DNA of 64,000 nt from Sphaerobacter sp. Lineage in GTDB: Bacteria > Chloroflexota > Chloroflexia > Thermomicrobiales > Thermomicrobiaceae. Below the pieces are notes generated by a model. It was not told the DNA's origin. It was given only the letters and a program-made list of their open reading frames with translations, and ran no database searches. This document shows positions 37,051 through 50,609 of this stretch, piece by piece. The position numbers were made by a program, and so were the translations under genes. The DNA lies in the NCBI GenBank assembly GCA_029961075.1, contig JASBVL010000024.1:25445-89444 (forward strand), written 5' to 3'. Numbering within the stretch: position 1 is the stretch's first letter; each line of letters begins with the position of its first letter.

Positions 37051-37080
37051 TTGACACCGCGCGACGGCCGCCCGTAGCAT
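37051..37080 (+). promoter_or_regulatory. Promoter of the M20 carbamoylase gene
   Basis: A consensus TTGACA (37051-37056), 18-bp spacer, TAGCAT (37075-37080), about 80 nt before the ATG at 37160. Confidence 0.6.
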
Positions 37081-37159
37081 GGCCGCGCGACGCCACGCTG
37101 ACGCCGGCACCGCCGGGACCGTACCAGCCCGGCGCCGGCTGCGGGACGAGGGAGGGGGC

Positions 37160-38401
37160 ATGGTCCACCGCGAACCCGAGATCGACGCGGCACAACTGCT
37201 GAGCGACCTGGATGCGCTTGCCCGGATCGGCGCGACGCCGGAGGGCGGGGTGAGCCGGATTGCCTTCTCGCCCGCCGACCTGGAGGCGCGGCGGTGGGTG
37301 GAGGAGGCCATGCGCGTGGCCGGGATGGCGGTCCGGCGCGACCCGGCCGGCAACAGCATCGGCACCTATCCGGGGCGCGAGCCGGGGCTGGCCCCGATCG
37401 CGCTGGGGTCGCACACCGACACCGTGCCGAACGGCGGGCGCTACGACGGCGCGCTCGGGGTGCTGGCGGCGCTGGCGTGCGTCCGCGCGCTGCATGCGGC
37501 GGGGCAGCGGCTGCGCCACCCGGTCGAGGTCATCAACTTCGTCGCGGAAGAGGCGACCATGGGTGGCGGCACCTTCGGCAGCCGCGCCATGGCCGGGCTG
37601 TTCGACCCGGCCGCCCTCGACCACGAAGCCGTGGACGGCCGCCCGGTGGCCGAGCACCTGCGCCGCGCCGCCATCGACACGGCGCAGGTGCGCACCGCGG
37701 CCCGGCCGGCCGGCAGCCTCGCCGCCTACGTCGAGTTGCACATCGAGCAGGGCGGCGTGCTCGCGTCGGCCGGGATCGTCATCGGGGCCGTGGAGGGGAT
37801 CGTCGGGATCCGCCGCTACGCGGTGACCTTCCACGGCGAGGCGAACCACGCCGGCACGACCCCGATGGACGATCGCAGCGACGCGCTGGTCATGGCCGCG
37901 CCCTTCATCCTGGCGGTGCGCGAGATCGCCGTTGCCCACGGCATCGTCGGCACGGTCGGCACGCTGCGCGTCAGCCCCGGCGCGTCCAACGTCATCCCCG
38001 GCCGGGTCGAGCTGACCGCCGAGATCCGCGGGCTGGACGAGGCGACGCTCGACGCCGCCGAGGCGGCGCTGCGGGCGCGTGCCGAGGCGGCTGGGGCGGC
38101 CTTCGCCCGCATGTCGGCGAAAGAGCCGGTCCGGTCCGACCCGCTGATCGTTGCCTCGGTCGAGCAGACCTGCCAGCAGCTTGGGCTGTCCTGCCGGCGG
38201 ATGCCCAGCGGCGCCGGCCACGATGCCATGTGCATGGCCGCGCTCACCCGCCAGGGGATGATCTTCGTGCCCAGCCAGCGCGGGATCAGCCACGCGCCGG
38301 ACGAGTACACCGCGCCGGAGGACTGCGTGAACGGTGCGCGCGTGCTGCTCGGCACGCTGCTGGCGCTCGATGCCGCGCTCGACTCGACCGGAGACGGCTA
38401 G
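37160..38401 (+). CDS. M20-family Zn hydrolase: N-carbamoyl-L-amino-acid hydrolase/allantoate amidohydrolase type
   Basis: 413 residues from the ATG at 37160 (GAGGGAGGGGGC upstream). Metal ligands are seen in LGSHTDTVPNGGRYDGALGV and NFVAEEATMGGGTFGSRAM, and the lid/dimer domain in VELHIEQGGVL and GEANHAGTTPMDDRSDA; the end has MPSGAGHDAMCMA and SQRGISHAPDEYT. This is the HyuC/AllC/beta-ureidopropionase subgroup, releasing ammonia and CO2 from carbamoyl compounds. Substrate cannot be fixed from sequence; no hydantoinase or purine genes are adjacent. Confidence 0.92.
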   Translation: MVHREPEIDAAQLLSDLDALARIGATPEGGVSRIAFSPADLEARRWVEEAMRVAGMAVRRDPAGNSIGTYPGREPGLAPIALGSHTDTVPNGGRYDGALGVLAALACVRALHAAGQRLRHPVEVINFVAEEATMGGGTFGSRAMAGLFDPAALDHEAVDGRPVAEHLRRAAIDTAQVRTAARPAGSLAAYVELHIEQGGVLASAGIVIGAVEGIVGIRRYAVTFHGEANHAGTTPMDDRSDALVMAAPFILAVREIAVAHGIVGTVGTLRVSPGASNVIPGRVELTAEIRGLDEATLDAAEAALRARAEAAGAAFARMSAKEPVRSDPLIVASVEQTCQQLGLSCRRMPSGAGHDAMCMAALTRQGMIFVPSQRGISHAPDEYTAPEDCVNGARVLLGTLLALDAALDSTGDG

Positions 38402-38869
38402 GAGCGCGCCGTGGAGCGCCGGCGTCCTCGCCGGTCCCTCGTCCGGCTCATGGGTTGGCACGGCCGTGTGCCCTGAGGCATCTCCCCGCGGCGACAACAT
38501 CCGGTAGGGGAGGGCCTTGTGCCCTCCCGCGCGGGGATGGGTTCTCCCGGCATCTCCGGGCGGGGACAAGCCCCGCCCCTACCGGGGGCGCGTGGGGCAC
38601 CGGCCGTGCCCGGTCGGGTCGGGCCTTGTGCCGAACAAGCCTCCCGCCGCGTGGAGCGCCGGCGGCGCACGGAGCCGCGCCGGCTCCCGCCGGGTGCGGC
38701 GGCTGCGTTCGGTCGAGGCGGGGCGGGCTGGAAGCTGGCGCTTGCGGTGGTGACCAGCCGGAGGCTGGCGCCCCGCGGCCCATCCACCCGCGGCCGACCC
38801 GCGTAGAGCCGGTAGGGAGCGCTCGGGGGGCGCGCCACGCCGACGCGCCCCGGTGGGGATGGGGGACCG
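38402..38869. other. Repeat-rich intergenic region
   Basis: 468 bp without a gene. It contains GGAGCGCCGGCGTCCTCGCC (about 38413), the GGTAGGGG element at 38503-38583, and another GGAGCGCCGGCGG at about 38651. Frames here are repeat-driven and lack starts with ribosome binding sites. Confidence 0.55.
38503..38583. repeat. Paired GGTAGGGG inverted element, 81 bp
   Basis: Left end GGTAGGGGAGGGCCTTGTGC, right end GGACAAGCCCCGCCCCTACC: the ends GGTAGGGG(A/C)GGG are inverted relative to each other, with CCCTCCCGC and CTCCCGGCATCTCC inside. The 52200-52271 and 60178-60355 copies have the same paired layout. Confidence 0.65.
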
Positions 38870-40210
38870 GTGCTGCGCGGCTGGACGGCTGCTATCGCGC
38901 GCGGTGCGAGCCGCATCGATCCCATCGCGCGCGCCTGGGCGGTGGTCACCGGCGGCAGCACCGCCCGGCTCGCCCTGGGCTTCATCACCAGCGTGCTCCT
39001 CGCTCGCGCCCTCGGCCCGGCCGGGCTGGGCACGTTCGCCGTGCTCGGCGTGCTGGTCACCCTCACCGGGGCCGTGGCCGACGTCGGCCTGAGCAACGCG
39101 GCGGTGCGGCGCGTCGCCGCTGTCTGGCCGGGCGAGCCTCAGGCGGCGGTCGCCCGCGGCCGCGCCTTCTTCTGGGTCCGGACAGCGCTGGCCCTGGCGA
39201 CCGCGGTCGTCGCCGGGCTGCTCGTCGCCAGCCCCGCTGGCGCGGCGCTGCACCTGCCGCGGGACCCAGTCCTCATCTGGCTCGCCGTGCTCGGTGTCCC
39301 GGCGACGGCGCTCAGCGGCGCCGCGACCACGCTCCTCCAGGCGACCGGCCGCTTCGGCCGCCTCGCGCTCGTCCCGCTCGCCAACGCGGCACTGACCACG
39401 CTGCTCGCCGCCCTGCTCGCGCTGCGTGGCTGGCTGACGCTCCCCACGGCGCTCGGCGTGCTCGGCATCGGCACCTCGCTGGCCGCGTTCGCGCTGGCGC
39501 GCCGCCTCCTGGGGTCCGGCTGGCTCTCGTGGGCGCTCCCGGACCGCCAGGCGCTGCGCGTCGAGGCGCGGCATCTGCTCGGCTTCGGCGTCTGGATCTG
39601 GCTGGCCAGCCTGCTCGGGTTGGCTGCCGGGCATCTCGACCTGCTCCTGGTCAATCGCTGGTCCGACCCGGCCGGCGTCGGCGCCTACGCCCTGGCAGTC
39701 AGCCTGGCGAGCAAGGTGGAGATCGCCAACCACAGCCTCTACACGGTGCTGATGCCGGTCGCCGCGGCGCTGCGCGGTCGGAGCGCGACCCGGCGCTACG
39801 TCCGCCAGAGCCTGCTCCGTGGTGCGGCCGTCGCGCTCGCCCTGCTGCCCCTCGCGGCGCTGGCGCGGCCGCTGATCGCGCTCGTCTACGGCTCGGCCTA
39901 TAGCGGCGCGACGCCGCTGGTCCGGGGCCTGCTCGTGGTCGCGCTCCTCGACCTCCTGGCGACCCCGCTCCTCCTGCTCGCGTTCACCGCCGACCGTCCC
40001 CGGGTGCTGGCGGGCGCCGAGGCGCTTCGCACCGCTCTGCTGCTGGGGGCCGGCATCTGGCTGATCCCGGCCTACGGGCCGGGCGGCGCCATCGCGGCGC
40101 GGCTGATCGCCCGCGTGGCCTCGACCACAGTCGCCCTCATCCTGCTCGCCCGCGGCGGTACGGCCCTCCACCCCCAGCAAGCCAGCCCCGCGCCGCAGGA
40201 GCAGGTCTAG
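38870..40210 (+). CDS. Polysaccharide flippase (MATE/Wzx-like)
   Basis: 446 residues from a GTG start at 38870. Twelve or more hydrophobic segments; the N-terminal STARLALGFITSVLLARALGPAGLGTFAVLG and the middle YALAVSLASKVEIANHSLYTVLMP are typical of oligosaccharide flippases of the Wzx/MVF group. It should export lipid-linked glycans across the membrane. It is convergent with, and overlaps by 4 bp, the glycosyltransferase gene, which supports a surface polysaccharide role although no complete cluster is here. Confidence 0.85.
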   Translation: MLRGWTAAIARGASRIDPIARAWAVVTGGSTARLALGFITSVLLARALGPAGLGTFAVLGVLVTLTGAVADVGLSNAAVRRVAAVWPGEPQAAVARGRAFFWVRTALALATAVVAGLLVASPAGAALHLPRDPVLIWLAVLGVPATALSGAATTLLQATGRFGRLALVPLANAALTTLLAALLALRGWLTLPTALGVLGIGTSLAAFALARRLLGSGWLSWALPDRQALRVEARHLLGFGVWIWLASLLGLAAGHLDLLLVNRWSDPAGVGAYALAVSLASKVEIANHSLYTVLMPVAAALRGRSATRRYVRQSLLRGAAVALALLPLAALARPLIALVYGSAYSGATPLVRGLLVVALLDLLATPLLLLAFTADRPRVLAGAEALRTALLLGAGIWLIPAYGPGGAIAARLIARVASTTVALILLARGGTALHPQQASPAPQEQV

Positions 40211-41379
40211 CCGCTCCCGCCCTGCCGGGCGACGCGTCCGTCCGGGCTGGTGGTCGGGCGACCCCCGGCGCAGCGGTACAGTTCCTCCAGCGCGGCGACC
40301 GTGTGCGCCAGGGTGTAGCGTGCCGCGACCGCCGCGAGCCCGGCCCGGCGCAGGCGCTCGCGCTCGGCCGGATCGGACAGCACCGCCCGCAGCGCGGACG
40401 CCAGCGCCTGCGGGTTGCCCGGCGGTGCGCACCGGGCCGCCGGGCCGAGGTCCGGCAGGCAGCCGACCGCGGTGCCGACGATCGGCAGCCCGCAGGCGGC
40501 GGCCTCCAGTGCCACCAGCCCCTGCGCCTCGTAGCGCGACGACAGCGAGAACAGGTCGGCCGCCTGATACAGCGCCGGCAGATGGTCGTGGGCGACGGCG
40601 CCCTGAAAGGTGACCCGCCCGGCCAACCCCAGCTCGGCCACCAGCGCCTCGAGCCGTGGCCGCAGCGGCCCGTCGCCGGCGATCGCTAACCGCAGGGCCG
40701 GGTACTCCCCGGCCAGCAGCGCGCAGGCCCGCAGCAGCCCCGCCTGGTCCTTGACCGGCACCAGCGATCCCACGTGCAGCAGCCGGGTTTCCTCCCCCTG
40801 CCGCCTCGGCGTCGCTGGCGCGAACCGGGCCGTATCCACGCCGAGCGGCACCAGCGACACGGTCCCGCGCGGGACGTGCGGCGCGGCCAGGCGGATGACC
40901 GCGCGGGAGCCTGCGGTGGTGTGCGCCGCGCCCCGCAGCGCTATCCCGACCAGCCACCGGTTCAGCCGGCTGGCCGCGCCGCCATAGCCGATGTCCGGGA
41001 GATGCACCAGTTCGCCGCCCGCCAGTGAGACGATCGCCGGGACGCCCAGCCGCCACCCGGCGGCCACCGCGACGAAGCCCGGCTCGTCGGCCCAGAAGGC
41101 GTGCAGGACGTCGAACCGCTCGCGCCGGTGGGCGAGCGCCACTGCCGCCAGCGCGCGCCGGAGCAGCGCCAGCCGCGCCAGGCCACGGGTGTCGCCGCCG
41201 CCGAGCGGGACGACGCGCGCCCCGTGAACCCGGTAGGGGCGCGTCGTGTGGGGGTAGCGCAGGGGGAAGACCCGGACGTCGTGGCGCGCGGCAAGTTCCC
41301 GGACCAGCGCGAGCAGCGCCGGGATGCACCAATCCGTCTCACTGGCACTGAACCCGGGGAGGATCAGCCCGACCTTCAT
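40207..41379 (-). CDS. GT4-family glycosyltransferase
   Basis: 390 residues with the GT-B fold of family 4: N-terminal KVGLILPGFSASETDWCIP, the donor domain starting LLHVGSLVPVKDQAGLLRAC, LAIAGDGPLRPRLEALV and the E-x7-E motif SSRYEAQGLVALEAAACGLPIVG. An in-frame GTG at 41385 is an alternative start. Probably adds a sugar to a lipid-linked oligosaccharide handled by the neighbouring flippase; donor and acceptor unknown. Confidence 0.9.
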   Translation of the reverse strand: MKVGLILPGFSASETDWCIPALLALVRELAARHDVRVFPLRYPHTTRPYRVHGARVVPLGGGDTRGLARLALLRRALAAVALAHRRERFDVLHAFWADEPGFVAVAAGWRLGVPAIVSLAGGELVHLPDIGYGGAASRLNRWLVGIALRGAAHTTAGSRAVIRLAAPHVPRGTVSLVPLGVDTARFAPATPRRQGEETRLLHVGSLVPVKDQAGLLRACALLAGEYPALRLAIAGDGPLRPRLEALVAELGLAGRVTFQGAVAHDHLPALYQAADLFSLSSRYEAQGLVALEAAACGLPIVGTAVGCLPDLGPAARCAPPGNPQALASALRAVLSDPAERERLRRAGLAAVAARYTLAHTVAALEELYRCAGGRPTTSPDGRVARQGGSG

Positions 41380-41667
41380 CCGCACCCGTTCCCCATCGCG
41401 CGAGCGGGCGCGGCCCAGTGGGGACGTCCGGGGTGTCGACCCGTCGCCGGAGCCGCGCCCGCTCGGTATACGCGCGAGCCGGTCGATTGGACGTGGGCGA
41501 CCCTCGCCCGACGCAGAGCCGGCGCGACCGGGGCACCACCGGGGCTGTCACGGATGGTGGGGACGGTGCTGCGGGCGTGCGCGACTCACCCAGGCGCGCA
41601 CAGGGAGCAGAGAGCGCAGCAGGGCTGCGGCACCGTGCGGCCCCGTCGGCCGGACGCAGGAGCCGGG

Positions 41668-44600
41668 TCAGCCCGCCAGCGTGAGGCGCCGCGCGATGGC
41701 CGGGCGCTGCGACTTGTCCTGGTACATGCGCTGGTCCGCGACGTTGACGAGCGTGACGGCGCGGTCGCCGTCGGCAGGGTAGGCCGCGACACCGAGGGAG
41801 ACCGACGGTAGCGGGAGCGTGCGGCCGTGCGCCTCGTAGGTTCCCTCGGCTATGGCGCGCCCGAGGCGGTCCGCGAAGCGCGTCGCCTCGTCGGCATCCA
41901 TGCCGGGCAGGATGATGGCGAACTCGTCCCCGCCGCAGCGGGCGACGGTGTCCTGCGTGCGGCTCTCCCGCTGCAAGATGCTCGCGATGGCGCGCAGGGT
42001 GGCGTCCCCGGCCACGTGACCGTGCGTGTCGTTCGTCGCCTTCAGGCCATCGACGTCGAGCATGATGACCGAGAGCGGCTCGTCGGCGCACTGCGCGCGC
42101 TCCAGTTCGGTCTCCAAGCGCTCGTACAGCGTTCGGTGGTTGGCCACCCCCGTCAGGCCGTCGAGCATAGAGGCCCGCTTGAGCTGGTCGTGCAACTGCG
42201 CGACCTCGATGGCCTGCGCGAGCTGCTGCGCCACGATGTTCAGCAGTGCCTCGTCGTTCTCGGTAAAGACGCCGATGCGGCGGCTCTCCACCGAGATCAC
42301 GCCGATCGTGCGCCCCTCGATCGCCAGCGGCACGGCCAGTGCCGAGCGCATCGAGGTGACGGTGCCCTTGCTCCGGACATCGGCCTGGAGATCCGCCACC
42401 CGCGCCGGTCTCTGGTAGCGGGTGACCCAGCCGATCAGCCCCTCGCCCGCCGGGATGCGGGCGCCGGTCACCGCGCCGGGCGCCCGCGTCTGCCCGTAGA
42501 GGTCGCCCGTCTCCGGGTCGACCAGGTAGATATCCAGGTGGCCGACGCCGATCTCACGCCGCAGCAACTCGGTCACGTCGGCGATGAAGGTGCGCAGGTC
42601 GGTGATGCCGCCGATCATCCGCGCGACCTTGTAGACGATGTGCATCGCCCGCGCATCGACCGCGTTGATGCGTCCGGCCATGAGGTCGCGGTTCGGCAGC
42701 GCACTCGGCGTGGTGCGCGGCGGCGTCTGCTCGGGCCAGTCGTGGCGATCCAGCGTGCGGAGGAACGCGGCGACGACGCGCGGGTTGAACTGCGTGCCGC
42801 TGCAGCGCAGGATCTCCGCCCGGGCCTGCTCGCGCCCGGGGGCCTTCCGGTACGGCCGGTCGGTGGTCATCGTGTCGTAGGTGTCCGCCACGGCGATGAT
42901 GGCCGCCCCGAGCGGGATCTCGTCCCCGCTCAGCCCGTCGGGGTAGCCGCTGCCGTCGTACCACTCATGGTGATGGCGCACCAGCGGCACCAGCGGCATC
43001 AGGGAGAGGTTGTCCGCCAGGATCTTGGCCCCGAGCGCGGCGTGCTCCATGATCAACGCCCGCTCCTCGGGGTCGAGCCGGCCCGGCTTCTGCAGCACCA
43101 CGTCGGGCACGCCGATCTTGCCGATGTCGTGCAGCAGCCCGGCCAGCTCGATCGTCTCGACCTCGAGCTGCGGCAGCCCCAGCTCGACCGCGATGGCGCG
43201 GGCGTACCGGGCGACGCGCTCCGAGTGCCCGTGGGTGTAGGAGTCCTTGGCATCGACCGTTGCCGCCAGGGTGCGGATGCCCGAGAGGTACAGGTCGCGC
43301 ATGCGCCCGTAGAGCTGCGCGTTCTCGGTGGCGATGGCGAGCTGATTGGCCACCGTGCTCAGCAGCGACAGATCCTCGCTCGTGTACGGCAGATCGACCC
43401 GCTTGGGCCCCAGCGTCAACAGCGCAACCGCGTGCCCCTTGTTGACCAACGGCACGATCACCGCGTCCTCCGTGGGCGGCACGTCCAGGTGTTGCACCGG
43501 CTCGCTGCGGCCCTGCACCGCCTCCACGGCCGGATCGCGCGCGTCGAGCGTCTGGCGGTCGGGGCCGGGGCTGATGCCGGCCGCGGTCCAGAGGTGGTAG
43601 GTGCGCATCGACGGGTCGTAGAGATAGAGGCGGACGTGGGACGGCCCCATCGTCTGCGCGATCAACTCGACGGTGGAGTCCGCCAGCTCATCCGGGTCGA
43701 GGATGCCGTTCATGCGCTGGCTGAACTCGAGCAGTTGCCGGCGGTAGTCGTAGCTGCGCCGGTCGAAGAGGCGGTCGATGAACCCCTGAATCGCGCGGCG
43801 CAGGCGGTCGCCGCCGATGGCGAAGACGGCGCTCACGATGGCGACGGCCACGACGCTGCTCACCCCGGTGCGGTTCTTGACCACGAGCGTGGCGGCAAAG
43901 AGGAGCAGCGCATAGGCGCCGGTGATCAGCGCGACCAGCGTCGAGTAGACCACCCCCCGCCGGATGTAGAGCCGCAAGTCCATGAGCTGGTAGCGCAAGA
44001 TCGCGTAGGCGAACGAGGCGGGCAGGAGGATGATGCTCAACGTGCTGATCTCGGGGCGGACGATGTCGCGCCCCACCACGATGCGCGGCAGCATAGTGAG
44101 GAGCAGAAATGGCAGGAGGCTGAGCACGCTCCCGAAGGCGACGATCCGCAACTGGGTCGCCTCACGGTTCGACCGCGCACGCCACCAGTTCTGCAGGAGT
44201 GCGCCGGTTCCGCCCACCAAACATGCGACATAGTAGGCATAGAGCCACGGCCGGAGCACAGGGAACCAGGATGGCGAGACGACGCCGCCGATCGTCAGTG
44301 CCACTGCGGCTGGGATAGCGGTACACAGGACGGCCCAGGTGGGCAGCTCCCAGCGTCCAATCTTGAGGCGCCGGCAGACCGGAAACACCAGGGGCAAATA
44401 TGCAACGCTGCTCAGAGCTAGTGGTAGGGCAATGCTATGAAGCACAGATGCCCACATAACCTGGCGAACCACTACCGGAGCCAAGGCAAACTCGACAGCA
44501 CCACTGAGGCACATCAGCGCAAGTGCCCGCGGCGCGGGACCATGACCCCACAGCGCCGCCACCAGCCCGACGAGGGCGGCAGCGACGCTGATGACGATGG

Positions 44601-44997
44601 ACGCAGTGCTGCTGAGTTCCCTCGCGGTCACGTCGGCCACGAAGCGCTGCCCGGTCTGTGGCCGCTCCACCACCACCTGGCGCACGGCATCGGCTTGCCA
44701 AGTGTTCTGGACATTCTGCGAGACGATGCTGTGCCCGTTCACTTCCCGGACCACGTCACCGGGCCGGATTCCAGCATCGCCCGCCACGCTGAATGTCGGC
44801 ACCTTCGTAACGATCCAGCTCTCCTGAGCCGCATTCCACTCCATGCCTATCCCGAGACTGAATGGGCGGGAGGTCGCGTAGATAACACAGCCCAGGAGGA
44901 CAACGTACGCCACGACAGCCGCAGCCACCACGTGCCGCCGAAACGCTCGGCAAACCTGACGCTGGTATGTACCGCGGAGTGGAGGTGTCATCGACAT
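41668..44997 (-). CDS. ComP-like membrane receptor with GAF, HD-GYP, GAF and GGDEF output
   Basis: 1,109 residues. Layout: TM helix (about 22-42); an extracytoplasmic PDZ-like loop containing AGIRPGDVVREVNGHSI; a block of about eight TM helices (about 130-400); a GAF domain (about 430-590); an HD-GYP phosphodiesterase with His623-Asp624 in LLHDIGKIGVPD and GYP at 684-686 in HHHEWYDGSGYPDGL; a second GAF (about 800-935); and a GGDEF cyclase with CGGDEF at 1021-1026. Both catalytic sites look intact, so it could make and break cyclic-di-GMP. The N-terminal half resembles ComP. The ATG directly follows the stop of the ComQ-like gene (TGAATG), so the two are translationally coupled. Confidence 0.9.
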   Translation of the reverse strand: MSMTPPLRGTYQRQVCRAFRRHVVAAAVVAYVVLLGCVIYATSRPFSLGIGMEWNAAQESWIVTKVPTFSVAGDAGIRPGDVVREVNGHSIVSQNVQNTWQADAVRQVVVERPQTGQRFVADVTARELSSTASIVISVAAALVGLVAALWGHGPAPRALALMCLSGAVEFALAPVVVRQVMWASVLHSIALPLALSSVAYLPLVFPVCRRLKIGRWELPTWAVLCTAIPAAVALTIGGVVSPSWFPVLRPWLYAYYVACLVGGTGALLQNWWRARSNREATQLRIVAFGSVLSLLPFLLLTMLPRIVVGRDIVRPEISTLSIILLPASFAYAILRYQLMDLRLYIRRGVVYSTLVALITGAYALLLFAATLVVKNRTGVSSVVAVAIVSAVFAIGGDRLRRAIQGFIDRLFDRRSYDYRRQLLEFSQRMNGILDPDELADSTVELIAQTMGPSHVRLYLYDPSMRTYHLWTAAGISPGPDRQTLDARDPAVEAVQGRSEPVQHLDVPPTEDAVIVPLVNKGHAVALLTLGPKRVDLPYTSEDLSLLSTVANQLAIATENAQLYGRMRDLYLSGIRTLAATVDAKDSYTHGHSERVARYARAIAVELGLPQLEVETIELAGLLHDIGKIGVPDVVLQKPGRLDPEERALIMEHAALGAKILADNLSLMPLVPLVRHHHEWYDGSGYPDGLSGDEIPLGAAIIAVADTYDTMTTDRPYRKAPGREQARAEILRCSGTQFNPRVVAAFLRTLDRHDWPEQTPPRTTPSALPNRDLMAGRINAVDARAMHIVYKVARMIGGITDLRTFIADVTELLRREIGVGHLDIYLVDPETGDLYGQTRAPGAVTGARIPAGEGLIGWVTRYQRPARVADLQADVRSKGTVTSMRSALAVPLAIEGRTIGVISVESRRIGVFTENDEALLNIVAQQLAQAIEVAQLHDQLKRASMLDGLTGVANHRTLYERLETELERAQCADEPLSVIMLDVDGLKATNDTHGHVAGDATLRAIASILQRESRTQDTVARCGGDEFAIILPGMDADEATRFADRLGRAIAEGTYEAHGRTLPLPSVSLGVAAYPADGDRAVTLVNVADQRMYQDKSQRPAIARRLTLAG

Positions 44998-45876
44998 TCA
45001 GCTCACCAGTCGCGCCAATGCTGCGACGGCGTGACCCCGCGCCGCAAGCCGTTCGAGTATTTCCCGGACGCGCTCTCGCTCGCCCTCCATCACGACTCGC
45101 GTAAAGAATTGCGCCTCACACTCATCAATCTCGCGCCCATCTCTGGCGCCGGCATACACCAACGGAAGTGTGCGCTTCCCACGCTCACGATCCGTCTTCA
45201 CAGCGCCCACGGCTGCGTCCTGCAGATCGTTGGCGAGTTGCTCCACCGTTCCGAGGTGTCGACCGAGCGACTCATAGAGCGCCAGTTCGTTCTCATCCTG
45301 CGTCCCGACGAGCGCTCCGAGGCGACACGCCGCTGCGGCGAGTTCACCTCCCTTTCGCCGACCAATGTCGAGTGCTTCATCGAGCGAAAGATCAGGTCGG
45401 CCCTCGCTGGCCAAATCGAGGTACTGGCCACCGCCGGCAGTCAACGCGCAGCGCGACAGGCCCTGGATGAACGCCGGGATCCGGTCCGCCGGCAACCCAA
45501 CCTCCTCGAGTCGACCAAGGAGCTCGTAGGCCAGCACCAAGAGGGCACCAGCGACTCCGACCGCCTGGCCGATACCCGCCGTGTCGATCAAGGGTGATGG
45601 GTCGCCATCCTGGATGTCATCCAAGACGTCCAACGCAGCCATGAAGACTTCCACCGCAGCGGCGACCTGCGCGGCTGGCAAAGCCGGACCGCGCACGGCG
45701 ACCGACACCGCGAGAACAAGAACTGGCCAGCGCGGCTCGAGGTCTCCGCTCAGGACCTTGCCGCGCTGGCGGAGCGGTATGCACAGGAGGTCGCGATACG
45801 CATCGGGGATGCAGGCCGCTGCGACAGCAGTCTCAACGATCTGTCGCACGTTTTGTATGCCGGCCGGTGTGAGCAA
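44998..45876 (-). CDS. ComQ-like polyprenyl synthase/peptide prenyltransferase
   Basis: 292 residues with the isoprenyl-diphosphate synthase fold: first Asp-rich motif DDIQD (86-90) in AALDVLDDIQDGD, QYLDL (151-155), KGGEL (175-179) and second Asp-rich motif NDLQD (216-220), then GKRTLPLVYA. This short form with a degenerate second motif is that of ComQ, which prenylates the tryptophan of the ComX pheromone, rather than of long-chain synthases. The start is TTG at 45876, with GGGAAG nine nt upstream; no ATG or GTG is available in frame between it and the peptide gene's stop. It lies between the peptide gene (54 bp upstream) and the receptor gene. Confidence 0.85.
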   Translation of the reverse strand: MLTPAGIQNVRQIVETAVAAACIPDAYRDLLCIPLRQRGKVLSGDLEPRWPVLVLAVSVAVRGPALPAAQVAAAVEVFMAALDVLDDIQDGDPSPLIDTAGIGQAVGVAGALLVLAYELLGRLEEVGLPADRIPAFIQGLSRCALTAGGGQYLDLASEGRPDLSLDEALDIGRRKGGELAAAACRLGALVGTQDENELALYESLGRHLGTVEQLANDLQDAAVGAVKTDRERGKRTLPLVYAGARDGREIDECEAQFFTRVVMEGERERVREILERLAARGHAVAALARLVS

Positions 45877-45930
45877 TGCGCCTGACTTCCCGACGCTAAC
45901 CGCAGGTGGTGAGCATTCTGGCTCTGAGAC

Positions 45931-46140
45931 CTACGACCACCACCCCAGCGACGTGACCGGCCCCGCGTTCAGCTTCTGGCCGCCGGCGAGCTGTAGACAC
46001 AGCTTGCTCAGCGCCGCGTGCTCGGCGGGACCCAGCCGGTACTCGCTCAGCGCCGACGCCGAATCCGCGATCGCCTGCGACCGAAATTCCGCGTCGGTGA
46101 ACAAGCGGCGAATGATCGTCTCGACGGTCCGCAGATCCAC
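45931..46140 (-). CDS. ComX-like pheromone/peptide precursor
   Basis: 69 residues from a GTG start with an excellent Shine-Dalgarno site (AAGGGGAGG at 46146-46154). The N-terminal part (TVETIIRRLFTDAEFRSQAI, then ALSEYRLGPAEHAALSKL) looks like a small helical leader of the kind that precedes modified core peptides, similar in pattern to the N-terminus of ComX. The C-terminus is KLNAGPVTSLGWWS: two adjacent tryptophans two residues from the end, where ComX has its prenylated tryptophan. It is first in an operon with the ComQ-like enzyme and the ComP-like receptor. Direct sequence identity to ComX is low and I rely on context, length and the tryptophans. Confidence 0.75.
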   Translation of the reverse strand: MDLRTVETIIRRLFTDAEFRSQAIADSASALSEYRLGPAEHAALSKLCLQLAGGQKLNAGPVTSLGWWS

Positions 46141-46164
46141 GGCAACCTCCCCTTGAACCAGAAC

Positions 46165-46210
46165 GGATACGGCAGCGGTATTCTACCGTATCCTACCCTA
46201 CTCTAGACAA
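46165..46210 (-). promoter_or_regulatory. Promoter with inverted-repeat operator for the peptide/prenylase/receptor operon
   Basis: On the minus strand TTGTCT (46205-46210), 19-bp spacer, TAGAAT (46180-46185). The -10 lies inside an inverted repeat GGATACGG (46165-46172) / CCGTATCC (46186-46193). The repeat would cover the -10 and start site, so a repressor or response regulator could bind there. Leader to the GTG at 46140 is about 30 nt. Confidence 0.5.
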
Positions 46211-46302
46211 GACCTTTCCACGTCAGTGCCACCGCAAAGGCACCTTGGCGGGAAGTACATGAGTCCCGAGTGCCTACGATCGGCCCAGTCGGAACGGGCT
46301 CC

Positions 46303-46540
46303 ATCACGCGTGATGCGTCACGCGTCACGCATGTTCCGTGACGCGTGTTGCGTGTTCCGGGGTCCGCGTGGCGCGGTGTATGTCGTGGCGCGGAGCGCGT
46401 AGTGGGTGGTGCATGGGGAGCGTGTTCCGTTGTCCTCACCTGTGGCCACTCTCCCATCCGGGGCAGGGGGATCACACGGAGTACGGAATACGCAATACGG
46501 AACACGCATCACGCATCACGCATGACGCATGACGCATGAC
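46303..46540. repeat. Element with inverted CGTGATGCG / CGCATCACG arms and heptamer array
   Basis: Left arm 46303-46359 (ATCACGCGTGATGCGTCACG, then CGTGTTGCGTGTTCCG), right arm 46481-46540 (TACGGAATACGCAATACGGA, ACACGCATCACG). The right arm ends in five 7-bp units CGCATCA/CGCATGA at 46506-46540, directly abutting the radical SAM stop at 46541. The 45-bp right arm recurs at 60449-60493. Confidence 0.6.
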
Positions 46541-48016
46541 TCAGAACCCCGCCGTCTCCGGCCGCTGGTAGGCGAGCACCCGCTGCAGCGCCTGCAGCTC
46601 CCACGGGTGCCGGTACCACTGCAGGTGGTAGCGCCAGGCGCTGATCCCCCGCAGCAGCCAGCGCCAGCGCCGCCGCAGGCGCGCGTCGGTGATGGTCGGA
46701 TAGTAGGCGTTCAGCACGCGCTCGAAGTCATGCACCTGGCGGCGCAGCGGATCGTCGAGCCACGGCGTGTGCGCGCTGCGCCGCTGGGCGAACTCGTGCC
46801 ACGCGGGGCTGATCCACTCGTCGAGCGTCTCCGGGAAGCGGAAGCCCTGCGCCTTGGCCTGCTCGTACAGCTCGCCCGCCAGCGGCACCGGCGTGTACAT
46901 GTAGAGGATGATCTCGGCATCGGGGTTGACGCGCTTGACGGTGCGGATGAAGGCCAGCGTCTGCCGCACGTCGGTCTCGGGGTCCGGCGGGTTGCCCAGC
47001 ACGAAGGAGAACTCGGGCACGATGCCGTACTCGCGCATCTTGGCGGCGATGGCCAGCGTCTTCTCGGTCGAGGCGCTCTTGCCCTTGTTCATCCGCTGCA
47101 GTGTCTCGTTGGAGCCGGACTCGGCGCCCAGAAAGACCATGCGCAGGCCGCTGTCGCGCATCAGCGCCCAGGTGCGGTCGTCGTAGCGCAAGAGCGTGTC
47201 GATGCGCCCCTCGCCCCACCAGGCGATGCCCAGGCCGCGGATGCGCTCGGCGAACTCGGCCGTGCGCGCCTCGTGCACGAAGAAGTTGTTGTCGTAAAAC
47301 TCGACGGCGTCGACGCCCCACTGGTCCACCAGGCGGCGCGCGACCGCCGCCGTCCGCTCGGCCGACTGCGCGAGCCAGCGGCCGTTCACCATGTTGACCA
47401 CCGCGCAGAAGTTGCAGAAGAAGGGGCAGCCGTAGCTGGAGTGGTGCGGCAGCGTGCGCCGGCCGAGGAAGGTCGGCCGGATGTAGCGCGCCACGTCGAC
47501 GCGGTGGTACGGGTAGTCGGGCAGCCGGTCGGGGTGGGGGATCGGCGGCATGCCGGTCGTCACGATCTCGCCGCGCTCCGGGTGGCGGTAGGCGAGGCCG
47601 GGGATGGTGGCGAGGTCCGTGCCGTCGCGGAGTGCGTCGAGCAGCGCGACGAAGGTGACCTCGCCGTGGCCGCGGACGACGTAGTCGACGAAGTCGGACC
47701 GGAGGCAGACGTCGTAGTGCTGCGTCGGGAAGTAGCCACCCCAGACGATGGTCAGGTCCGGGTGCAGCGCCTTGAGCTGGCGGCTGAGCGGGACCGCGTG
47801 GCTGAGCTGCGGGCCCGGCATGACGGTCACGCCGAGGACGCGGGCGCTGGTCTCGCGGATGGCGCGGTCGACGGCGGCGACCGGTTCGGGCTCCAGATTG
47901 CCGTCGACGATGCGGTAGTCGTACCGGCCCTCCAGCAGCGCGCCGAGTGCCAGCAACGACATCGGGAGCACCGGCTTGCGCCGAGCATTACTGGGTGGGT
48001 TGTACAGGATCAGCAT
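46541..48016 (-). CDS. B12-binding radical SAM protein
   Basis: 491 residues. N-terminal cobalamin-binding Rossmann domain (MLILYNPPSNARRKPVLPMSL ... VWGGYFPTQHY), then the radical SAM cluster motif CPFFCNFC (C-x3-C-x2-C), AESGSNETLQRMNKGKS, and a C-terminal helical region with paired Trp/Tyr/His residues. Such enzymes methylate or rearrange unreactive carbons on lipids, peptides or antibiotics. It overlaps the double methyltransferase gene by 7 bp and is the last gene of a four-gene operon. Substrate unknown. Confidence 0.9.
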   Translation of the reverse strand: MLILYNPPSNARRKPVLPMSLLALGALLEGRYDYRIVDGNLEPEPVAAVDRAIRETSARVLGVTVMPGPQLSHAVPLSRQLKALHPDLTIVWGGYFPTQHYDVCLRSDFVDYVVRGHGEVTFVALLDALRDGTDLATIPGLAYRHPERGEIVTTGMPPIPHPDRLPDYPYHRVDVARYIRPTFLGRRTLPHHSSYGCPFFCNFCAVVNMVNGRWLAQSAERTAAVARRLVDQWGVDAVEFYDNNFFVHEARTAEFAERIRGLGIAWWGEGRIDTLLRYDDRTWALMRDSGLRMVFLGAESGSNETLQRMNKGKSASTEKTLAIAAKMREYGIVPEFSFVLGNPPDPETDVRQTLAFIRTVKRVNPDAEIILYMYTPVPLAGELYEQAKAQGFRFPETLDEWISPAWHEFAQRRSAHTPWLDDPLRRQVHDFERVLNAYYPTITDARLRRRWRWLLRGISAWRYHLQWYRHPWELQALQRVLAYQRPETAGF

Positions 48017-49728
48017 AGGTCTACGGCCCTCACCCCCGACCCCTCTCCCGACTCTGGGAGAGGGGAGATGACAGCAGCGGTCAGTCGGTAGATGCGGAGC
48101 ACCTCGTTGATGAGATCCCGCTCGGCGACGACCTCGATCGCGAGCCCGGCGTCGGCCGCAGCGTGGAGGAAGCCGGGCGCGTCGCCGTCGGAGGAGAGGA
48201 CCACCAGCGCGCAGCCGCCTTCCGTCAGGTGGCTCGCCAGCTCCGCCGCGAAGCGCTCGGCCACGTCCGGCGAGCGCCAGGCGCGGTCGAACTCATCGCG
48301 CGGGATGCCGCGGTAGAAGGGTGGGTTGAACAGCACCAGGTCGAAGCGCTCGCCCGCCACCGGCCCGAAGAGGTCCCCCTGGCGGACGTCGATCCGGTCC
48401 TGGACGCCGTTGGCGACGGCGTTGATCCGCGCGCAGCGCACGGCGGCCGGGTTGATATCGACCGCGACGACGCGGGCCGCCTGCTGGGCGGCGACGACCG
48501 CCCCGACGCCGGAGCCGGTGCCGAGGTCCAGCACCGTGCCGCCGGGCGGGACGAGCCCCTCGCCCACCTCGGCCAGGTAGGCGCCGCTGCGGAACAGGAC
48601 CGGGTTGAAGACACCCGGCAGCACGACGATGTCACGTCCGGCCACCCGCTCGGTTCGCGCCCGGTCGAGCCGATCCCAGCCGCGGAGCCGCGCCTGCCAG
48701 CGCAGCCCCCGCCGCCAGACGGCGCGGAGCGCGCGGGACCGGCGGGCCACGGGCGGATTGGCGGGGTCCGCGGCGATGCGCTCCCCGGCGATGACGAGGA
48801 AGCGTGCCGGCTCGCGGTGCCCGCGGAGCCGCGCCCGCCAGGGGCGGAGCGCCCAGCGCCAGCCGTACCAGGGCGCGTGGAGGCGCCAGCGGACGCCGAG
48901 GGTCGCCGCGAGCGCGTCCAGCCGGTCGTAGGTCAGGAAGCCCTCGCTCGGCAGGCTGTTCGAGGGGAAGCCGAAGCGCTGGGTGAACGCTGCTTCCCGC
49001 TCCCGCAGCATCTGCTCACCGCTGCGCGCGTCGCGGTAGATCGGCGAGTCGAGGATCACGAGCTGCCCGTCCGGCCGCAGCGCGCGGAGCGCCTCCCGCA
49101 GCGTCGCCGCGTAGTCGGCGGAGTAGTGGAGGGAGGCGTTGAAGATGACCAGGTCGGCCTGTCCGTCGGCGAAGGGGAGCCGGTCGAACTCGGCCTGGAC
49201 CGGCGTGAAGACGGCGTCGTAGTGGACATAAGCACCGAGGCCGTCGTACCGGTCGGTGAGGAGGTCGACCGCCGCGACAGCGTGGCCGCGGCGCGCCAGG
49301 CGGTAGCTGAGCCAGCCGTTGCCGGCGCCCAGGTCGAGGATGCGCAGGCCGAGGCCCCGCCGCGCCTCAAGCGGCGCGAGGATGCGCTCGACGAACGCCT
49401 GGTAGCTGACGGCCCGGATCCGCCAGTCGTCCCGGAAGCGCCCGCTCAGGTCGTCGAAGGGGAGGGCGCGGTAGTAGCTCGGGAGGTCGTGGCCGCGGCC
49501 CTCGGCCCGCCGCACGGCCGTGTACTCGGCCAGGAACTGCGTGAAGGATGGCGCGCGCTCGGGCAGCAGGAAGCGCCAGATCCCGCCCTCGGCTGCAAAG
49601 GTGTCCCCCTCGGCTGGGCAGCGGACCACCCCCTCCCCGGTCCGCTCCAGCGGCGCACGGCAGCGGGGGCAGGCGAGGGTCAGGCCGCTGGCGCGGGCTG
49701 GAGCCGCGGCCTGCTCGCTTCTGATCAC
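48010..49728 (-). CDS. Fusion of two class I SAM methyltransferase domains with an N-terminal zinc ribbon
   Basis: 572 residues from a GTG start at 49728 (GGGAGGGATGCCCG upstream). Residues about 20-45 hold a Trm112-like ribbon (CPRCRAPLE...CPAEGD). First methyltransferase: ILDLGAGNGWLSYRLARRGH with a small-molecule-type Rossmann fold. Second domain after a basic linker: TVLDLGTGSGVGAVVAAQQA and LFNPPFYRG, the NPPF motif of PrmC/HemK-type N-methyltransferases. The last ~15 residues (PLPESGEGSGVRAVDLC) are encoded by an intergenic GGGAGAGGGG repeat, so the C-terminus has read into repeat sequence. Overlaps the upstream methyltransferase stop by 4 bp. Confidence 0.88.
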   Translation of the reverse strand: MIRSEQAAAPARASGLTLACPRCRAPLERTGEGVVRCPAEGDTFAAEGGIWRFLLPERAPSFTQFLAEYTAVRRAEGRGHDLPSYYRALPFDDLSGRFRDDWRIRAVSYQAFVERILAPLEARRGLGLRILDLGAGNGWLSYRLARRGHAVAAVDLLTDRYDGLGAYVHYDAVFTPVQAEFDRLPFADGQADLVIFNASLHYSADYAATLREALRALRPDGQLVILDSPIYRDARSGEQMLREREAAFTQRFGFPSNSLPSEGFLTYDRLDALAATLGVRWRLHAPWYGWRWALRPWRARLRGHREPARFLVIAGERIAADPANPPVARRSRALRAVWRRGLRWQARLRGWDRLDRARTERVAGRDIVVLPGVFNPVLFRSGAYLAEVGEGLVPPGGTVLDLGTGSGVGAVVAAQQAARVVAVDINPAAVRCARINAVANGVQDRIDVRQGDLFGPVAGERFDLVLFNPPFYRGIPRDEFDRAWRSPDVAERFAAELASHLTEGGCALVVLSSDGDAPGFLHAAADAGLAIEVVAERDLINEVLRIYRLTAAVISPLPESGEGSGVRAVDLC

Positions 49729-50609
49729 CGGGCATCCCTCCCATCCCGCCTTCCGACCGGCCCGGCGCTCCGCTCCAGCACCACCAGGTAGTGATCGTTG
49801 AGCCAGGTCCAGGGGAAACGACCGGCAATCCGGTCCTCCAGGCGCGCCAGGTGGGCAGCGGCGCGTGGCCAGCGCTCCACCAGCCCGGCGAGGTACGACG
49901 GTGGCAGCAGGACCCCGATCCCGGCGGTCGTCACGGGGCGGAACGTGGGGGCGAACTCGGCGCACAGCCGCCGGGGCGTCGGGTACCAGACTCGGGTGGA
50001 GGCCCCGCCCCCCGTGTGCGCCACCGTGCCCGCGCGCCCGGCGGTGAGCCGGCGCAGGGCCCGCCGCGGCTGGCCATGCGCGAGGTGCCAGCCGATCTCC
50101 CACGGGCAGAGCGGGCTCATCAGCACCAGCACGACCCGCCCACCTGGTCGGACCCAGTCGGCCAGGGACGCCGCGAGGGCGCGGCGGTCGGGCAGGCAGT
50201 TCAGCGCGCCGAAGGAGGAGAAGGCGCCGTCGAAGGGCCCGCACCCCGGCGCGCTCCCCGCAGCGACCAGGACGTGCTCGAGCGAGTGCCGGCTCAGGTC
50301 GAGCTGCGCGAGCTGGACCCGCCCCGCGACCCCAGCGGCGCGGACCTTCTCCCGCGCGCGGGCCAGCATCGCGGCCGAGGCGTCGAGCGCGAGCACCTCG
50401 ATGCCGCGCTGCGCGAGGTGCACGGCGTCCTCGCCGGTGCCGCAGCCCAGCTCCAGCACCCGGTCGCCGGGGCGGAAGGCCGCGTCGAGGTGGCGCCAGA
50501 CGGCGGTGCGCAGCAGGCGCCCGAGCGGGCGCTGGGTGAAGCTGGCGTCGTAGGCGCCCGCCGCGGCGTCGAAGGGTGCGGCCCGGCCGGCGCTGGTCGG
50601 CGCTGCCAT
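49725..50609 (-). CDS. Class I SAM-dependent methyltransferase
   Basis: 294 residues. Motif I is VLELGCGTGEDAVHLAQRGI, followed by VLALDASAAML and the catalytic-domain strand FDGAFSSFGALNCLPD. The C-terminal part carries Trp/Pro-rich segments that may bind a lipid or aromatic acceptor. Sits between a radical SAM gene (2-bp gap) and the double methyltransferase (4-bp overlap), so it acts in the same pathway. Acceptor unknown. Confidence 0.9.
   Translation of the reverse strand: MAAPTSAGRAAPFDAAAGAYDASFTQRPLGRLLRTAVWRHLDAAFRPGDRVLELGCGTGEDAVHLAQRGIEVLALDASAAMLARAREKVRAAGVAGRVQLAQLDLSRHSLEHVLVAAGSAPGCGPFDGAFSSFGALNCLPDRRALAASLADWVRPGGRVVLVLMSPLCPWEIGWHLAHGQPRRALRRLTAGRAGTVAHTGGGASTRVWYPTPRRLCAEFAPTFRPVTTAGIGVLLPPSYLAGLVERWPRAAAHLARLEDRIAGRFPWTWLNDHYLVVLERSAGPVGRRDGRDAR

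Follow-up and report, generated by a model that had tools for sequence, protein, structure and literature searches.

Is a three-gene operon of Sphaerobacter sp. a peptide pheromone system of the kind known from Bacillus, and what would its receptor, which carries no histidine kinase, do with the signal? The operon lies within the 64,000 nucleotides of contig JASBVL010000024.1 analyzed here (hereinafter, the window) and encodes a precursor peptide (X), a predicted tryptophan prenyltransferase (Q) and a membrane receptor (P). We consider it likely that these genes make up a prenylated-peptide system of cell-cell signaling, in which the receptor is predicted to detect the peptide and would respond through a change in cyclic di-GMP (c-di-GMP); this output is proposed because P has HD-GYP and GGDEF domains instead of a histidine kinase. 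Signaling by peptides with prenylated tryptophan is known from Bacillus (PMC4008528) and, in the form of a ribosomally synthesized and post-translationally modified peptide (RiPP), such a product is known from Paenibacillus (PMC10853753). Throughout, sources cited by PMC number are represented by excerpts of their text, and likeness to ComQ/ComP, PalQ/PalP and ChrPC refers to published descriptions, not to sequence comparison.

Organization of the operon

The three genes are arranged as follows:

45931..46140, minus strand, X, precursor peptide of 69 amino acids, with a GTG start, a GGGGAGG ribosome-binding site about 5 nucleotides upstream and the end LGWWS

44998..45876, minus strand, Q, predicted tryptophan prenyltransferase of 292 amino acids, matching PF00348

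41668..44997, minus strand, P, receptor of 1109 amino acids, composed (Pfam) of a first transmembrane segment (TM1), PDZ, a transmembrane (TM) bundle, GAF, HD-GYP, GAF and GGDEF

A sequence-only reading of this DNA had described three coupled minus-strand genes in the order peptide-enzyme-receptor, with a 69-residue peptide ending in Gly-Trp-Trp-Ser, a polyprenyl synthase with DDIQD and NDLQD motifs and a PDZ/multi-TM receptor devoid of a histidine kinase, and each of these elements was recovered in the present analysis. The X stop is separated from the Q start by 54 bases, and the TGA stop codon of Q directly abuts the ATG start codon of P; the start of Q itself is uncertain, a GTG 9 codons downstream being an alternative. 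The genome that contains the window (G000, 3.57 Mb) was compared with congeners, labeled here G112 and G113, and with a further genome, G114. The search of relatives for the three-gene cassette that the sequence-only reading had proposed found X-Q-P in identical order in G113, and because this order recurs there and X has five further close relatives in a protein database, the locus is more than a chance arrangement. That reading had also assigned the DNA to Chloroflexota. Sphaerobacter is now placed by NCBI in the phylum Thermomicrobiota, so the assignment holds in the wide sense of the name, in which we use it for the phylum sampled by the genome search.

The precursor peptide

The profiles that X matches are NF038399 (Os1348 family of the nitrile hydratase leader peptide (NHLP) clan, E 2.5e-9), PF14407 (E 1.5e-7) and TIGR04509 (E 4.1e-6), all under the curated cut-offs, and on these matches we classify X as a putative RiPP precursor with an NHLP-type leader, as in PalXQP, and a variable C-terminal core:

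45934..45984, minus strand, variable core, X residues 53-69, in which Trp68, the sole invariant Trp, is the predicted acceptor

The identity of X with ComX in the Pfam sense was rejected, there being no PF05952 match in X at E 1; the same family matched 0 of 41 related genomes, but 14 of 14 controls were equally silent, so that its absence elsewhere is not established by this count. As in ComQXPA, where the precursor has 52-73 amino acids and a Trp close to its C-terminus (PMC4008528), X has tryptophans at positions 67 and 68 of 69.

A database search with the whole peptide returned six proteins, one of which is the window's own; together with the peptide of locus L035, the window and its five database relatives form a set of seven distinct Sphaerobacter-type sequences. 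The relatives of X, at 63-79% identity, display a marked contrast between leader and tail, columns 1-52 having a mean pairwise identity of 87% among the seven and the last 10 columns one of 45%. All seven end in G-x-W-x (GWWS, GWWA, GYWY, GWWT, GFWT, GMWA and GHWV), with exactly one residue after the Trp68 position; Trp as the last residue, a feature of PalXQP, is found in none of them. The penultimate Trp, the only one invariant in the seven peptides, is therefore predicted to be the acceptor. For ComQ of strain RO-E-2, a Trp that is second, third or fourth from the end is acceptable (PMC5331326).

In three cases (L035, P0148 and P0149) the peptides are identical up to residue 61 and differ solely in the tail beyond it, which looks like polymorphism within a species. 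The X of G113 is one residue off P0148, a protein labeled Sphaerobacter thermophilus, which points to Sphaerobacter or a genus very close to it as the host. The conservation of the peptide frame, on which the sequence-only reading had made its claim depend, thus extends to G113 and to five further database sequences. Weak matches to the X leader occur in 31 further genomes of the class.

The enzyme

Q matches PF00348 with 69.7 bits and contains both aspartate-rich motifs of the superfamily, the second (SARM) in an altered form:

45607..45621, minus strand, first aspartate-rich motif (FARM) DDIQD, Q residues 86-90, without the canonical RR after it

45217..45240, minus strand, Gln213 and the pseudo-SARM N216-D217-L-Q-D220 (together QxxND), NDLQD being Q residues 216-220

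In an alignment of 20 rows selected for similarity rather than for the motif, Q213, N216 and D217 are invariant (20/20), R-R or R-H within 12 residues after the first Asp motif is found in 0/20 rows, and a loose GKxxR pattern occurs only in P0006 and P0012 (GGNER and GGAER). The signature of canonical synthases (GKxxR, RR after FARM, DDxxD at SARM), and with it the customary IPP-binding motifs, is thus missing from Q; the genome encodes two further polyprenyl synthases over the family cut-off, both with RR, GKxxR and DD. What Q does have is the combination typical of ComQXPA enzymes, namely a PF00348 domain with an intact FARM and a pseudo-SARM of the NDxxx/GDxxx form. According to a review of mutagenesis in ComQ (PMC5331326), the pseudo-SARM must be NDxxx or GDxxx, DDxx(D) being unsuitable for Trp prenylation, and replacement of its Asn by Asp drastically lowers activity. 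For PalQ and Ord1, a Gln just before the second motif has been proposed to hold the indole NH (PMC13290415, PMC10853753). This Gln is present also in the canonical synthases compared here and is accordingly permissive, not diagnostic.

The enzyme tree is unrooted and comprises 94 of 125 rows, the 31 omitted being 4 partial sequences and 27 repeats or near-duplicates chosen by hand; the motif itself enters into the Q label, and long branches lead to L124 and OWN_L002. In this tree, one branch (support 97/92) has 44 QxxND rows together on the same side, and another (support 100/98) does so for 42 canonical synthases. Clustering of the enzyme with quinone-type synthases, which the sequence-only reading had named as fatal to its proposal, is not what the tree displays: Q groups apart from the canonical synthases, including both others of its own genome. 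Q thus combines the Gln before SARM with separation from the synthases in the tree, two of the marks of Trp prenyltransferases resembling trans-isoprenyl diphosphate synthases.

The AlphaFold2 (AF2) model of Q (mean predicted local distance difference test score, pLDDT, 92.0) has the isoprenoid synthase fold. Foldseek matched it to farnesyl diphosphate synthases (FPPS), geranylgeranyl diphosphate synthases (GGPPS) and the Trp prenyltransferase Ord1, with FPPS and GGPPS at the top; the fold by itself does not distinguish prenyltransferase from synthase function. Ord1 is among the better matches of Q by profile as well as by fold. On the sequence features taken together, we predict that Q is a ComQ/PalQ-type tryptophan prenyltransferase. 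A scan of genome contigs with Q gave one distant match, in Sumerlaeota.

The receptor

The output part of P, which the sequence-only reading had not spelled out, is the novel element of the locus: it consists of GAF, HD-GYP (PF13487, 121.6 bits), a second GAF and GGDEF (PF00990, 133.6 bits). Among the Pfam matches of P at E 1 there is no kinase family, and the histidine kinase output (PF07730 and PF02518) with a ComA regulator that belongs to ComQXPA is missing from the window locus. Its parts are:

44614..44997, minus strand, TM1 and external PDZ (hypervariable), P residues 1-128

43762..44613, minus strand, remaining TM bundle, P residues 129-412, from the AF2 model

42673..43317, minus strand, HD-GYP domain, P residues 561-775, with HDIGK and HHEWYDGSGYP intact

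41671..42201, minus strand, GGDEF domain, P residues 933-1109, with GGDEF intact and RTQD at what we take to be the position of the inhibitory site (I-site)

Pfam detects the PDZ domain just under the cut-off (PDZ_6, E 7.9e-6; PDZ, E 4.3e-4). By a simple hydropathy rule, P has nine TM segments, the first and second of them separated by about 100 residues, and its homologue in G113 has ten; the AF2 model of residues 1-430 (pLDDT 82.5, mostly lower in residues 340-430) places a TM1 helix at 7-42, a five-strand domain at 51-122, between TM1 and TM2, and the TM bundle thereafter. The layout of about ten TM segments with a PDZ between TM1 and TM2 that typifies ComQXPA receptors is therefore found in P, with the PDZ match under the curated cut-off; ComP in its AF2 model likewise has a PDZ domain between TM1 and TM2, before the TM bundle (PMC9620489). 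In an alignment of 32 full-length receptors, the window's included, the HD and GYP motifs are kept in 32/32 and GGDEF in 29/32, P being among the intact ones; in the three others GGDEF is altered, and several of the listed I-site stretches lack RxxD.

A further protein, P0117, is 29% identical to the sensor region and has an adenylate cyclase domain (PF00211), possibly a third kind of output.

Divergence between congeners

The comparison of G000 with G113 reveals a sharply bounded block of divergence (Bacillus comQXP loci combine variable signal, enzyme and sensor with a conserved cytosolic part; PMC4008528). The syntenic proteins around the operon are 85% (M20 peptidase), 72% (flippase), 69% (glycosyltransferase), 90% (B12-radical-SAM protein) and 76% and 74% (methyltransferases) identical; within the operon, X is 77% and Q 45% identical, and P is split, with 29% in TM1, 27% in PDZ and 40-47% in residues 121-300 of the sensor, followed by 78-80% in residues 301-420, 75% in the first GAF, 92% in HD-GYP, 80% in the second GAF and 73% in GGDEF. 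At the nucleotide level, eight 300-base steps at 44001-46400 have 44-65% identity and a GC content of 62-67%; the steps on either side have mostly 68-90% identity and a GC content of 66-80%, with exceptions near 40.1 and 41.3-41.9 kb (62-65%), a gapped alignment at 38.3-38.9 kb and poor alignment before 37.1 kb. Sharp divergence is thus limited to the X tail, Q and the outer sensor region of P, with an edge before the conserved part of P. Among the 32 receptors, the mean pairwise identity is 19% in TM1, 32% in PDZ, 44% and 55% in the TM bundle, 76% in HD-GYP and 54% in GGDEF. By analogy, the contrast between G000 and G113 corresponds to the pherotype pattern of comQXP.

In G112 (L155), the contig starts in the P gene near the boundary between variable and conserved parts; strain variants possibly broke the assembly there.

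Related loci in the phylum

A profile was run against 400 genomes of the phylum, further searches covered 158 genomes of the class, and 51 loci were fetched by score, some canonical ones serving as controls. By enzyme type, these are 28 QxxND, 13 canonical (with RR) and 8 other loci, plus 2 without a closed enzyme frame (L118 and L128), which were excluded from the counts. Adjacent peptides were sought with a leader model built without the row of the locus under examination; it detected one in 19/28 QxxND loci (a figure inflated by near-copies, related genomes being counted separately), in 3/8 other loci (one of them weak and without a Trp end) and in 0/13 canonical loci. A Trp-ending peptide that the model missed is present in four more QxxND loci (L036, L112, L116 and L124). 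In the collection of 22 adjacent peptides (A2), 16 match NF038399 at E 0.1 or better; all but the window's were chosen partly for position and Trp, so the Trp they have in common carries no independent weight. Better evidence comes from the seven Sphaerobacter-type sequences, five of which were found by whole-peptide similarity alone.

A multi-TM open reading frame stands beside Q, or beside X where X follows Q, in 26/28 QxxND loci. The receptors of 20 of the 28 loci were scanned against Pfam (for L050, L107, L110, L111, L112, L113, L114 and L127, the analysis covered the downstream frames only): 16 have histidine-kinase domains, 3 have c-di-GMP domains and 1 has GAF only (L124). The c-di-GMP cases are L035, with HD-GYP and GGDEF, and L104 and L123, with HD-GYP alone; the window adds a further HD-GYP plus GGDEF protein. 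The loci with DD-type enzymes (L040, L041, L043 and L156) all have kinase receptors, that of L156 being split over two frames, and the total for 25 scanned receptors is 20 kinase, 4 c-di-GMP and 1 GAF only. In the enzyme tree, L104 and the L123 enzyme (C_L077) fall beside L117 and L120, both of them kinase loci, and apart from the Sphaerobacter group, which indicates that c-di-GMP outputs occur on two Q lineages.

A LuxR-type response regulator is encoded downstream in all seven loci tested (L036, L102, L103, L108, L040, L041 and L043), making L036, L040 and L043 complete X-Q-P-A sets. The histidine kinase with a regulator that defines ComQXPA is present in L040 and L043 and nearly so in L036, the receptor of which has HisKA_3 under its cut-off and HATPase over its cut-off.

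Several individual loci merit description. At L036:4611-8750 (G051), X overlaps Q and is followed by a PDZ sensor with HATPase and a LuxR-type regulator, a layout near comQXPA. G056 has several Q-like loci (L038, L039, L040 and L041) of a separate branch with DD second motifs, and L040 combines an X-like peptide with a kinase and a LuxR-type regulator. At L156:3029-7000 (G094), an NHLP-like peptide (read by eye), a PF00348 enzyme and a PDZ-HisKA_3 receptor lie below the reach of the Q profile at E 1e-3. The family f30 receptors beside X-Q (L106, L109, L115, L116, L119, L125 and L126) are large GAF histidine kinases, and several have a TM spacing without the TM1-TM2 gap for a PDZ.

Comparison with known systems

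The closest characterized relatives are PalXQP and ComQXPA. The former, PalX-PalQ-PalP of Paenibacillus alvei (PMC10853753), has an NHLP-type precursor with a terminal Trp, a prenyltransferase of the isoprenoid synthase fold and an adjacent sensor gene; PalQ shares with Q the conserved Gln before the second motif. PalXQP differs in that in PalX the Trp is the final residue whereas in X one more residue follows, the second motif of PalQ carries Asp in place of the Asn of Q, PalP is a histidine kinase whereas P has HD-GYP and GGDEF, and the host belongs to Firmicutes.

With ComQXPA of Bacillus subtilis (PMC4008528, PMC5331326, PMC9620489), the operon shares the near-C-terminal Trp, the NDxxx pseudo-SARM, the PDZ between TM1 and TM2 before the TM bundle and the variability of signal, enzyme and sensor. 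The gene order there is Q-X-P-A, whereas here it is X-Q-P, without ComA; ComX is a Pfam family that X does not match, and the ComQXPA receptor has kinase domains where P has HD-GYP and GGDEF. The designation "ComQXP-like" given in the sequence-only reading is hence apt for the way of working but not for membership, since X, like PalX, is a precursor with an NHLP leader and does not belong to the Pfam ComX family.

Ord1 (PDB 9v4g-9v4j) and ChrPC are, like Q, assigned to the Trp prenyltransferases of the isoprenoid synthase superfamily; in the excerpt of its report, Ord1 acts on free Trp and is described with no receptor partner (PMC13290415). Single-protein c-di-GMP readers of quorum signals resemble P in that one protein makes or breaks c-di-GMP; unlike P, they respond to small molecules and have dCACHE, GAPES1 or PAS sensors, not a PDZ-TM sensor.

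According to the excerpted texts, a 2014 census placed comQXPA only in Firmicutes (PMC4008528), and a 2022 survey assigned to Chloroflexi only the kinase-regulator pair of that pathway (PMC8895600). The sequence-only reading knew of no described system with this output, and our literature search agrees: among the matches listed (subscription journals and preprints being outside the scope), there is no report of this system in Chloroflexota and none of a peptide pheromone receptor with a c-di-GMP output. What is new here is the phylum and the direct c-di-GMP output; the parts are of known kinds, namely an NHLP precursor as in PalX, a ComQ-like active site and a ComP-like sensor.

Alternative explanations

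Several observations weigh against a prenylated-peptide signaling system. The Asp at the second motif of PalQ implies that the ND rule is not universal (PMC10853753), and in L040, L043 and L156, DD-type enzymes are found with X-like peptides, which have more internal Trp. In five of the 28 QxxND loci (L050, L102, L103, L108 and L123, the L123 enzyme being at a contig end) no X was found, a multi-TM receptor is missing from L050, and L107 is truncated where its contig ends; the near-copies and the choice of A2 peptides noted above belong here as well. The PDZ is weak by sequence, with a Pfam match at E 0.01 or better in 10/25 scanned receptors, and Foldseek on the P sensor gave nothing at E below 1e-3, GPCR-like matches ranking best and DegQ/CtpA pieces of about 90 residues coming lower, at 0.025-0.045. 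G112 has no X match and only a canonical enzyme, but its contig begins inside P, so that G112 counts neither for nor against the cassette. In G114, a PDZ sensor of the same layout has no Q-like gene within the surrounding 13 kb. The sequence-only reading had held that relatives with the receptor and without enzyme and peptide would speak against it; G114 is such a case in part, but the G114 protein is a histidine kinase whose sensor shows 32% identity. The PDZ-TM sensor was accordingly rejected as stand-alone proof. Finally, every functional step, from prenylation through export and ligand binding to the direction in which c-di-GMP would change, is inferred from genes.

The alternative that survives best, although we regard it as unlikely, is that the prenylated RiPP produced by X and Q has a different role, acting for instance as an antimicrobial or surface-active lipopeptide, and that P is a neighboring c-di-GMP enzyme that senses something else. 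PalX is a precedent, having been reported as a RiPP without, in the excerpt available, a demonstrated role in signaling (PMC10853753); NHLP-type leaders serve many RiPPs, the leader of X itself being weakly matched across the class, and the G114 sensor manages without a Q-like gene nearby. On the other side, the abutting Q and P genes, the recurrence of a multi-TM protein beside Q or X with differing kinds of output and the joint divergence of Q and the outer sensor part of P up to a sharp edge weigh against this reading.

Clearly less probable is an arrangement in which the peptide is modified and sensed but P acts mainly through protein interaction or through transcription of neighbors, not through c-di-GMP turnover. 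Dual HD-GYP/GGDEF proteins can have one inactive domain, and the altered GGDEF motifs and the I-site stretches without RxxD fit such a loss; it is opposed by the retention of HD and GYP in every aligned receptor and of GGDEF in nearly all, the window's included, by the two other receptors with HD-GYP alone and by the PilZ protein, of which one is encoded in the genome. Very improbable, and largely refuted, is the view that Q serves as an ordinary synthase of polyprenyl diphosphates for quinone or carotenoid formation and that X is a chance reading frame, for although Q has the PF00348 fold with FPPS and GGPPS as top structural matches and its likeness to ComQ is judged from published description, it was rejected as such a synthase on the absence of RR and GKxxR, its separate tree branch and the two canonical synthases of the genome, and X has relatives with a leader/tail contrast.

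Flanking genes and upstream region

In the interval 37079-50609, the neighbors of the operon are genes for a polysaccharide flippase and a glycosyltransferase to one side and for a B12-radical-SAM protein and methyltransferases to the other, and both flanks are syntenic in G113. It is conceivable, and no more than that, that exopolysaccharide is a target of c-di-GMP, given the syntenic flippase and glycosyltransferase. Upstream of X, there is one further feature:

46165..46193, minus strand, inverted repeat GGATACGG..CCGTATCC, just upstream of the X ribosome-binding site

It is the sole copy in the genome by pattern search; the 7-bp arms are largely conserved in G113, and the loop varies. We regard it as a candidate operator or leader hairpin. 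The loop contains TAGAAT/TACAAT, which could be a -10 element. An Rfam scan of 41.3-46.7 kb gave 0 matches, and a sigma-70 scan gave 0 sites.

Proposed mechanism and implications

Under the signaling scheme that we favor, Q, guided by the leader, would prenylate Trp68 of X with a geranyl, farnesyl or longer chain taken from its diphosphate; the X tail would then be cut off and exported from the cell. The resulting short lipopeptide would bind the PDZ/TM part of P on cells of the same type, and binding would shift the balance between the phosphodiesterase activity of HD-GYP and the cyclase activity of GGDEF and thus c-di-GMP.

On a broader scale, it seems rather more probable than otherwise that a family of prenyl-Trp peptide pheromones is spread phylum-wide outside Firmicutes, in Chloroflexota in the wide sense, and that the kinase of a ComP-type receptor has been swapped for c-di-GMP enzymes in Sphaerobacter and, separately, in the lineage of G395/G329, with a single-protein readout and strain-specific dialects. 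The parts are small and testable in Escherichia coli, and near-identical proteins labeled Sphaerobacter thermophilus suggest a species of which a named strain, DSM 20745, exists. Occurring across the phylum, with kinases in most of the scanned receptors and c-di-GMP domains on two Q lineages, the cassette would qualify as an exchangeable signaling module.

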